DNA from: Thermodesulfovibrio sp.
GTDB lineage: Bacteria; Nitrospirota; Thermodesulfovibrionia; Thermodesulfovibrionales; JdFR-85
Direction: 5' to 3'
NCBI GenBank assembly: GCA_027050975.1
Contig: JALUAR010000252.1
Coordinates: 1 to 32,942 of the forward strand
Length of the DNA: 32,942 nucleotides
This document shows positions 4,300-31,959 of the stretch, one piece after another; within the stretch, counting starts at the first letter, position 1, and each line of letters opens with the position of its first letter. The notes beneath the pieces are model-generated. The model had not been told where the DNA came from. It did not search any database and saw nothing but the letters and a program-made list of their open reading frames with translations. Position numbers and translations under genes: made by a program.

Positions 4300-4394
4300 G
4301 AAAATAGATTATCAGAAAAGGTGAGCAGTGGTAAATTGTCGGTTCAGGAGTTGAAGTTTTTATCTGATCTGGGCGATTCTAACAAATACAGAGG

Positions 4395-4542
4395 CAGGCT
4401 GAGGTGGGTCAGAACTCCATTAATGCGATAGGATTTAATTAATACAGTTCGTTACCTTAATTAATCTAAATAAGGTAAGGACTAAGGTCATTGTAACTTA
4501 CTGTCGGTATCGCCAAGTGTAGTTCTTCACCACCTCAGCCTG
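4395..4542. repeat. Large imperfect inverted repeat (148 bp span)
   Basis: CAGGCTGAGGTGGgtcAGAACT (4395-4416) versus AGTTCTtcaCCACCTCAGCCTG (4521-4542); inner GCGATA/TATCGC and TTACCTTA/TAAGGTAA pairings. Confidence 0.75.
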
Positions 4543-4588
4543 ATAAACTCAGATCACTACTGTCCAATAAACAGAGTAAGTCATAAGT

Positions 4589-4723
4589 AGGGTAGGGGGT
4601 ATTAATTTTTCGTCTCATTCTCGGCAGACATCCCTGTCTGCCTCCGAGGTAATTTTGCGATTTGCCCTCCATGGCAAATCTTTTGCAAAATTAAATCCGC
4701 TCAAAATTAATACCCCCTACCCT
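4589..4723. repeat. 135-bp palindromic element with 21-bp perfect terminal inverted repeats and two internal hairpins (MITE-like or structured element)
   Basis: AGGGTAGGGGGTATTAATTTT (4589-4609) is the exact reverse complement of AAAATTAATACCCCCTACCCT (4703-4723). Internal GGCAGAC-ATCCCT-GTCTGCC and TAATTTTGC-GATTTGCC-CTCCAT-GGCAAATC-TTTT-GCAAAATTA hairpins. Confidence 0.9.
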
Positions 4724-4848
4724 CTATAGGGATTTATTAAATTTTGACCGCACACTGATGCACTCAGTTAAAAAATCGCTCAATTCAGATTTAACTTTCA
4801 ATCTGCACTTAGGGTAAAATAGAAGAGTACCGGCTTGGAAAAGGATTA

Positions 4849-10230: not shown

Positions 10231-10381
10231 TTACCCGGATTTAAGACTCTAACAGCGTACCGCAGTGCCGATTTGTTATAATAGGTTTTGGGTCTTTAAA
10301 TAATCCTAAATCCAGCGATAAGATTCATAGCAGTGGTATGCTGGAAACTGTTGGTTTTTCGTTACCGCTGGATCCGGGTAA
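10231..10381 (+). other. Candidate structured leader/branched RNA element upstream of radical SAM gene
   Basis: Nested inverted repeats: TTACCCGGAT (10231-10240)/ATCCGGGTAA (10372-10381) perfect; ATCCAGCGATAA (10310-10321)/TTACCGCTGGAT (10362-10373) with one G-U; AAGACTC/GGGTCTT and TAACA/TGTTA in the 5' half. Confidence 0.5.
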
Positions 10382-22521: not shown

Positions 22522-22598
22522 GCCCCCTTAGCTCAGTAGGATAGAGCACAGGATTCCTAATCCTGGTGTCAGAGGTTCGAATCCTCTAGGGGGCACCA
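22522..22598 (+). tRNA. tRNA-Arg (anticodon CCU), CCA encoded
   Basis: GCCCCCT/AGGGGGC acceptor, CAGGA-TTCCTAA-TCCTG anticodon arm, AGAGG-TTCGAAT-CCTCT T-arm, ACCA end. Confidence 0.95.
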
Positions 22599-22839: not shown

Positions 22840-24024
22840 ATGGCACAGAAACATCAAACACCCTTACTTGACGAACTCGAAAAGGGACCCTTTCCGAGTT
22901 TCGTTAAGGAGATGAAGAGGGCTGCAGAGCATAGTGAATATGCTCAGGACCTTCTTGGACAGTTAGAGCTCTCCTACAAGGAGAAGGTGACTCACTGGAA
23001 GCATGGTGGTATAGTTGGTGTTAGAGGTTACGGAGCCGGAGTTATCGGCAGGTACTCCGACGTACCTGATAAGTTTCCTGGTGTTGCCCACTTCCATACC
23101 GTCAGGGTTAACCAGCCAGCCGGTTTCTTCTACACCACTTCCGCACTGAGAGAGATATGTGATATCTGGGATAAATATGGTAGTGGACTTACTAACATGC
23201 ATGGTTCCACAGGTGATATTATCCTTCTTGGAACAAAGACAGACAACCTTGAGCCTATCTTTGCTGAGCTTTCCTCAAGGGGATGGGACCTCGGAGGTTC
23301 CGGCTCCGCAGTGAGGACCCCAAGCTGCTGTGTCGGACCGGGCAGATGTGAGTGGGCCTGCTATGACACACTTGAACTCACCTATCAGATAACCCAGAAG
23401 TATCAGGATGAGCTTCACAGACCAATGTTCCCATATAAGTTCAAATTCAAGATGGCAGGCTGTGCTGTTGACTGCATTGCAGCAATTGCCCGTGCAGATA
23501 TGTCCATCATTGGTACCTGGAAGGACAACATCCAGATAGATCAGGATGAGGTCCGCAACTATGCACAGAGCGGAATGGACATTCAGAAAGAGATTGTAGA
23601 TATGTGTCCAACTGGCTGCATGAGCTGGGATGGCAATGAGCTGAAGATTAACGATGAGGACTGTAACAGATGTATGCATTGTATCGCCAAGATGACAAAG
23701 GCTCTCAGACCCGGTAAGGAAAGGGGAGCAACCATACTTCTTGGTAGTAAGGCTCCGATCGTTACAGGTGCTCTCATGTCCTGGGTTATCGTGCCATTCA
23801 TGAAGATGGAGCCACCTTATGAGGAACTCTTTGATCTCGTTGACAGAATCTGGGAGTTCTGGGATGAGCACGGCAAGAACCGTGAGAGGATTGGTGAGCT
23901 GATTGAGAGGCTTGGCTTCCCAACATTCCTCAAAGAGGTTGGCCTTGATCCGCATCCGGCAATGGTTAAGGAGCCAAGGAGAGATCCATTCTTCTTCTGG
24001 TCTGAAGAGGATATCGAAAAGTAA
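22840..24024 (+). CDS. dsrA: Dissimilatory sulfite reductase alpha subunit
   Basis: Siroheme/Fe-S Cys motifs ([18 protein letters not shown]), ferredoxin-like [30 protein letters not shown]; strong SD. Confidence 0.97.
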
Positions 24025-24069
24025 TTACAGAAACAAGCAATATTTTAAAATAAGTAAGAGGAGGTTATT

Positions 24070-25143
24070 ATGTCAGAATTACCACAGAGACAGACAGATA
24101 TCGGACCACCGCATTTTAGCAAATTTTTACCACCAGTAATAAAGAATAACTATGGTCAGTGGAAGTATCATGAGATTAAGAGCCCAGGCGTAATGGTTCA
24201 TGTTGCTGAAAGTGGTGACAAGATCTGGACTGTTAGGGTCGCAAGCCCAAGGCTTCTTTCCACTGACACTATCAGGGATATTTGTGAGATTGCTGATAAA
24301 TATTGTGATGGTTATCTCAGGTTTACCACGAGGCATAATGTAGAGTTTCTCCTTTCAGACGAGAGCAAGGTTGATCCTCTCGTTAATGAACTGAAAGAGA
24401 AAGGCTACATGATAGGTGGTATCGGTGCAAGGATCAGTAACGTTGTTCACACTCAGGGTTGGGTACACTGCCACTCAGCTGCAACAGATGCCTCCGGTCT
24501 TGTCAAGGCAATGATGGACGAGCTCCATGAGTACTTCCACACAAAGGAGCTTCCTGCAAAGGTAAGACTTGCTGTTGCATGCTGTGTTAACATGTGTGGT
24601 GCAGTTCACTGCTCTGATATTGCCCTTGTTGGTGTGCACAAGACACCACCGAGAATCGAGCATGAGAAAGTAAAGAACCTCTGCGAGATTCCTTCAACAG
24701 TTGCCTCCTGTCCAACCAGCGCTATCAGTCCAGATCCAAAGAACAAGAGCGTGAAGATCAAGCTTGAGAAATGCATGTACTGTGGTAACTGCTACTCTGT
24801 CTGCCCGGCCATGCCAATTGCTGATCCGAAGAATGACGGTGTGGCAATCGTGGTTGGTGGTAAGGTTTCGAACCTGAGGTCCAATCCTATGTTCTCAAAG
24901 TTAGCTGTGCCGTGGCTTCCTAATAATCCACCAAGGTGGCCAGAGGTTACAGATGCAGTGAAGAAGATCCTTGATGCATACATAGACGGTGCAAAGAAGC
25001 ATGAAAGGCTTGGTGAGTGGATTGAAAGGATCGGCTGGGAAAAGTTCTTCAAGATCACCGGCCTCGAGTTCAGGCTCCAGCATATCGACGACTTTACCTT
25101 TGCACGTGAGACTTGGAGAATGGCTGCTACATTCAAATGGTAA
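24070..25143 (+). CDS. dsrB: Dissimilatory sulfite reductase beta subunit
   Basis: [60 protein letters not shown]. Confidence 0.97.
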
Positions 25144-31737: not shown

Positions 31738-31959
31738 GATCTTTTATCTACCAAATCCGTTTTATATCCTTTATCAAAGGCAGAAGCCGAGTTACGATCT
31801 TGTGAAACTCTGTATCTGGAATCTGATCCCGAAAAAACGAGACATTTAGATTATATCACAAAATATACCCGAATCCAGCAGTAAACAAACGAAGGTTGTG
31901 GAGAGGAAAGATGCAATAGCTTTGATGGACAAACCGGGAGGTATCAGGAGGACAAAGGA

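Follow-up and report, generated by a model that had tools for sequence, protein, structure and literature searches.

MITEs are short, non-coding, multi-copy elements that lack a transposase gene and carry terminal inverted repeats (TIRs), are flanked by target duplications and occur alongside deletion derivatives. In the Bacillus cereus group, the bcr1-type repeats are mobile units of ~155 bp with a predicted conserved RNA structure. Dispersed intergenic palindromes of the REP type may also act as RNA (PMC3733652). For the RNA-binding regulator CsrA, the consensus obtained by SELEX is RUACARGGAUGU, presented in a hairpin loop, and the loops of CsrB read CAGGA(U/A/C)G (PMC7652899).

The element described here lies in a 32,942-nt stretch of a Thermodesulfovibrio sp. 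genome (contig JALUAR010000252.1, positions 1 to 32,942, assembly GCA_027050975.1), the whole of which we call the window. It shares with MITEs the features listed above, but its 135-bp inner module is common to two families that differ in their TIRs and in the length of their duplications, and is found in the wider phylum without recognisable MITE ends. Like REP/REPIN and ERIC-type repeats it is a dispersed intergenic palindrome; unlike them it is a three-way junction of 135 nt with conserved junction strands and no GTAG or CGTC tag, and it occurs in other phyla. The bcr1-type repeats, set beside the module by description alone, belong to another host group and are of another size. As in the sRNAs CsrB, CsrC, RsmY and RsmZ, GGA stands in apical loops, with the CAGGA(U/A/C)G / ACANGGANG consensus (PMC7652899), but the module is a closed three-way junction with two such apical sites, present in tens of dispersed copies, without a promoter of its own having been found and in hosts that are not limited to those with CsrA. 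Its hairpins are also long, whereas those selected by CsrA in SELEX are mostly short-stemmed.

Structure and copies of the element

The preliminary description had reported a non-coding palindrome with perfect 21-bp inverted termini and two inner hairpins, which could adopt a three-way junction shape, and each of these points was borne out. The termini (AGGGTAGGGGGTATTAATTTT, 4589-4609 and 4703-4723) are 100% complementary and close a junction with the hairpins P2 (4620-4648) and P3 (4650-4693, arms TAATTTTGC and GATTTGCC), and no ORF of at least 80 aa covers the palindrome. In the RNA orientation, which is that of the minus strand, 4703-4723 is the 5' arm and 4589-4609 the 3' arm of the junction-closing stem P1, and among the copies in this genome 18 of its 21 pairs show compensatory changes. 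P2, on the same strand, has a conserved CUC/GAG base, a constant GGA bulge (plus-strand TCC, 4643-4645), a variable 7-bp stem and an apical loop, ACAGGGATGT (4628-4637), that matches the CsrA SELEX core ACARGGAUGU. P3, also on the minus strand, consists of 9 bp, a 4-nt bulge (plus-strand TTTT, 4681-4684) and 8 bp, and its apical loop, CATGGAGG, contains GGA. The two junction strands read as RNA GAGCGGATT (4694-4702, minus strand) and AATGAGACGA (4610-4619, minus strand; consensus GAGAATGAGYGAA), and both are conserved across phyla. Folded as RNA, the plus strand reaches -66.0 kcal/mol (shuffles -27.5 +/- 3.1; z -12.3; 0/200) and the minus strand -69.2 (z -10.3); folded as DNA, the minus strand reaches -42.2 (z -11.0).

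Multiple copies and covariation, both of which had been proposed as checks, are found in the genome itself (281 contigs totalling 2.66 Mb; completeness 93.5%), and a single-copy sequence free of covariation is clearly not what it holds. BLAST places the element at 38 sites and a covariance model at 34. When the 19 intact copies were aligned on a structure with 21 bp in P1, 3+7 bp in P2 and 9+8 bp in P3 (alignment A1), 96.9% of the cells were paired and 35 of the 48 pairs were altered on both sides, a level attained by none of 500 shuffles; sliding the partners by one column lowered pairing to 41-46%. The unpaired junction strands are nearly invariant among these copies. Some copies in this genome have an extra hairpin or other inserts. 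In six of them (L004, L006, L015, L023, L030 and L021) the extra hairpin (CACCCC...GGGGACCCC) sits within the junction or, reversed, in P3, and it resembles a small mobile hairpin in its own right.

When the window was compared with the 4227 covariance models of Rfam 15, none overlapped the element, and a known Rfam family was rejected as its identity; the scan returned a tRNA and two sub-threshold chance matches away from the element. A hammerhead or other known ribozyme core was likewise rejected, as the junction strands differ in a by-eye comparison, and the element is undescribed in the open-licence literature that we searched. Elsewhere in the window, two tandem nucleotidyltransferase/HepT-like gene pairs in a toxin-antitoxin arrangement occupy 6-1683, and a tRNA gene (22522-22595) stands upstream of two adjoining sulphite/nitrite reductase-like subunits (22840-25143) consistent with dsrAB.

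Two MITE families carry the module

The 21-bp arms form a stem, P1, and do not delimit the mobile unit: P1 differs from copy to copy and the target duplications are found beyond it, for which reasons the arms were rejected as transposon ends. The unit that surrounds the window copy is a 206-bp MITE (class 1, 4555-4760) with degenerate TIRs (left, CACTACTGTCCAATAAA; right, in reverse complement, CATCAGTGTGCGGTCAAA), the ends of which are common to 13 elements of the genome; the terminal repeat CANTANTGTCCGRTAAA is found at both ends of this unit and of the 12 others. The entire unit aligns to another contig of the genome (C16:6188-6392) with 87% identity. It is flanked by 9-bp target-site duplications, AACTCAGAT on the left (4546-4554) and CACTCAGTT on the right (4761-4769), which match at 7 of 9 positions. 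In all 13 class-1 elements the 9-bp flanks agree at 6-9 positions (null mean 3.8), and the agreement is perfect in five of them (L003, L005, L015, L098 and L105). The class-1 MITE at L006 has landed in the paralogous counterpart of a repeat left intact at about 4394-4533 of the window, which provides a paralogous empty site. The intact repeat is a second imperfect palindrome, with the ends CAGGCTGAGGTGG and CCACCTCAGCCTG, and occupies 4394-4545, directly left of the MITE.

A second family of units (class 2) ends in CCCARATCCAGCGRTAA, a sequence with 64 matches in the genome against one for the reversed control, and has duplications of ~5 bp (e.g., TTTTA, TTGAA, TTAAC, TTATA, TAAAG and TTTAT). 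It carries the same module as class 1, in either orientation relative to the flanks. Since class-1 and class-2 units with different ends carry the same module, at least two unrelated MITE families of this genome have it as cargo. The preliminary suggestion of a MITE thus held for the many copies, the duplications and the empty site, but misplaced the ends, which lie outside the palindrome that it named. Three further copies (L008, L022 and L024) possibly belong to a third class of unit. Within the same class-2 flanks, L011 and L012 (contigs C268 and C121) hold the module opposite ways round, as if it could invert through its P1 arms. Among the class-1 MITEs, L099 (C226:6531-6639) has a different hairpin as cargo; in the window, a short class-2 MITE at 10305-10378 lacks the RNA module, and 31868-31884 is a lone class-2 terminal repeat. 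A search limited to the PF01609 transposase family found no member in the genome.

Both classes also include short units, 60-75 bp long, that lack the module; those of class 1 retain parts of P1, as would be expected of hairpin deletions. Such deletion derivatives, and the TIRs and target duplications of both classes, are what would also be seen in an ordinary MITE without RNA function, whose hairpins would be DNA structures and whose perfect stems would derive from recent copying or from template-switch repair of quasi-palindromes. We consider this unlikely in view of the wider family, described below.

Distribution across genomes and phyla

The family was found in 26 of 41 relatives with model R1 and the module in 56 of 296 sampled Nitrospirota genomes with model R2, a survey in which the copy numbers per genome are lower bounds (at least 11 at the top); the highest copy numbers are ~96 in G157 and 87 in G273. 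A pattern scan of GTDB contigs gave at least 117 stretches, which among the matches listed are mostly from Thermodesulfovibrionales and other Nitrospirota. The remainder of those listed come from Latescibacterota, Nitrospinota, Desulfarculaceae and Desulfobacteraceae (Desulfobacterota), Gemmatimonadetes (Gemmatimonadota), Handelsmanbacteria, Auribacterota and three CPR bins, matches for which MAG binning errors are possible in single contigs. Model R2 confirms these stretches, but as the scan pattern itself fixes ~22 bases, it is the pairing and not the match to R2 that lends independent support: over 96 copies of this set, 90.5% of the cells are paired and covariation is 0.68, compared with 0.15 after shuffling. 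Viral contigs gave no match to the module.

Three aspects of this wider family argue against an ordinary MITE. The junction strands are identical across phyla while the stems are wholly different; no target duplication above the level of shuffles is found at the P1 ends; and where genera share an insertion site the element is still there, its P1 changes compensated, although the flanks are only 73-92% identical. We considered that P1 might arise from inverted duplication of the target, as it seemed locus-unique in G072, and dropped the idea because L183 and L184 share a P1 with paired changes. At three pairs of orthologous sites (L285/L353, L324/L328 and L159/L169), the P2 or P3 hairpins are wholly different with flanks that are 76-92% identical, for which exchange of hairpins between copies and reinsertion at the same site are candidate explanations. 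The module appears to be a new structured-RNA repeat family that extends over several phyla, is absent from Rfam 15 and travels, in the genome studied here, in MITEs.

The folding strand

Among the P1 cells that are not Watson-Crick, 254 are G-U on the minus strand, against 68 that would form G-U pairs on the plus strand, and the excess is present in all four classes of gene orientation. After removal of within-genome repeats, 82 of the 94 informative genomes lean to the minus strand and 12 to the plus strand. In 153 of 177 copies the fold of the minus strand is also the more stable one. The asymmetry fails to reach significance in the family to which the window belongs (12:7) and is absent from its own genome (4:4), as would be expected of young, nearly perfect stems. 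Across the wider family the data point to the minus strand as the one that folds and, given the weak signal close to home, we infer the strand of the window copy from that family. The near absence of G-U pairs in the genome itself (4, against 4 A-C) had suggested that pairing is a property of DNA only, a view overturned by the wider sample; it agrees with an ordinary MITE, to which the asymmetry between G-U and A-C over the 94 informative genomes is contrary.

Where the element lies between co-directional genes, its RNA-like strand runs antisense to them in 76 cases and sense in 34; for tight gaps the figures are 44 and 9. Because of this bias few copies would be part of mRNAs, and a minus-strand RNA in antisense position would require its own transcription; no recognisable promoter-like site was found to feed the minus strand, in a group whose promoters are poorly modelled. 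The same figures can be turned round, as the mRNA contains the plus strand at 44 of the 53 close co-directional gene pairs, and the module could then be a plus-strand intercistronic element, such as a processing site, a stabiliser or an insulator in operons. We regard this as improbable: whatever the orientation class of the genes, it is the minus strand that tolerates G-U pairs, the same strand is usually the more stable, and the bias is equally explained by selection against the sense orientation, which is how we read it. The preliminary description had also raised a structured RNA upstream of the permease operon. Covariation, the strand asymmetry of the G-U pairs and conservation across phyla all favour a structured RNA, but with the minus strand as the RNA-like one, it is not the leader of the plus-strand permease operon.

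Strand asymmetry in a dispersed palindrome is also a property of the single-stranded DNA substrates of Y1/HUH transposases (RAYT- or TIRYT-like), as in REP and IS200/IS605, and tyrosine transposases with flanking long inverted repeats have been described (PMC3733652). We find such an origin very improbable, however, since the P1 ends have neither a GTAG nor a CGTC tag, the moving unit in this genome has target duplications typical of DDE enzymes, and the link to csrA described below would be left without explanation. The missing tag, together with a unit that is far larger, also tells against the REP-like reading entertained at the outset. Judged by flank composition, the outer ends of P1 have no conserved bases.

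Hairpin loops and CsrA

Taken from the minus strand, the loop sequence of the hairpins is ACANGGANG, that of a CsrA site. When csrA was searched in the carriers as PF02599, a GGANG apical loop was present in at least one arm in all 86 copies from the 25 csrA-positive Nitrospirota genomes, as against 6 of 85 copies and 1 of 23 genomes among those without csrA, five of the six copies being in G168. In carriers from other lineages, tested afterwards, the loop was found in 8 of 9 with csrA and in 4 of 18 without it (Fisher p = 0.003), several of the carriers without csrA being MAGs that may be incomplete. The p-values treat copies and genomes as independent, which they are not, and the contrasts within families are the stronger argument: in f8 (G023 with csrA, G035 without) and in f15 (G194 with, G247 without) the loops follow the gene. 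GC content does not account for the association, since genome GC overlaps fully between the two groups. The CsrA proteins of four carriers retain the RNA-contacting residues L4 and R44. One copy (L039, G015:C54) lies immediately upstream of a csrA gene.

That loop sequences track csrA is not what an ordinary MITE would lead one to expect. A rather unlikely alternative, in our judgement, is that the GGA loops reflect lineage and do not represent CsrA sites, with csrA loss and loop change sharing a phylogeny. Most of the sampled csrA-less genomes do fall in three families (f2, f10 and f13), and there are two exceptions to the rule, namely G168, with GGA loops and no csrA found in a genome that is 96% complete, and L294, where csrA is present and the loop missing. 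However, the contrasts inside f8 and f15, the agreement of Latescibacterota, Desulfobacterota, Gemmatimonadota and CPR bins with the rule, and a loop that fits the SELEX consensus in detail, beyond GGA, all speak for CsrA sites.

CsrA binding as the sole function was rejected, because genomes without csrA carry many copies (up to ~96), which makes it at most an added function. Since these genomes keep the core and conserve a P3 of another kind, the module has to serve a second role, one that does not depend on CsrA and is probably the older one. In csrA-less carriers (e.g., L199, L205 and L217), an internal loop of P3, GCCGAUAUUC ... AUAAAGAGGC, is conserved and could be the site at which a different partner binds.

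A proposed mobile RNA module and the Csr system

The explanation that we favour, and to which we would give about an even chance, is a mobile or dispersed structured-RNA module that displays paired predicted CsrA hairpins in hosts with CsrA. Its minus strand would form a three-way junction with a long P1, free in sequence as long as pairing is maintained, with P2 and P3 as its two arms and with conserved junction strands, and MITE families would spread it by means of transposases supplied in trans. In CsrA hosts the apical loops of both arms would be kept as CsrA-binding GGA hairpins, and because both arms keep them, a CsrA dimer would be expected to bind RNA transcribed from the module. Together, the many copies could titrate CsrA or, alternatively, put the RNAs that bear the module under CsrA control, and the core would also perform a function that does not need CsrA. 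Minus-strand transcription, CsrA binding, and titration or recruitment are steps that we infer from sequence. A bolder version, which we put forward tentatively and hold to be possible at best, is that of a self-spreading CsrA decoy: an ancient mobile RNA module, shared across phyla, with paired predicted CsrA hairpins in nearly every csrA-positive host sampled that are lost with csrA, so that transposition would add decoy copies.

Even without CsrA binding, a strongly covarying RNA family would be left to explain. Its hairpin loops vary with the presence of one regulator gene, csrA, in a module with tens of copies per genome, which raises the question of whether mobile elements can carry and amplify the binding sites of a global RNA-binding regulator. 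If true, the module would be a candidate RNA antagonist for Csr systems outside Proteobacteria.
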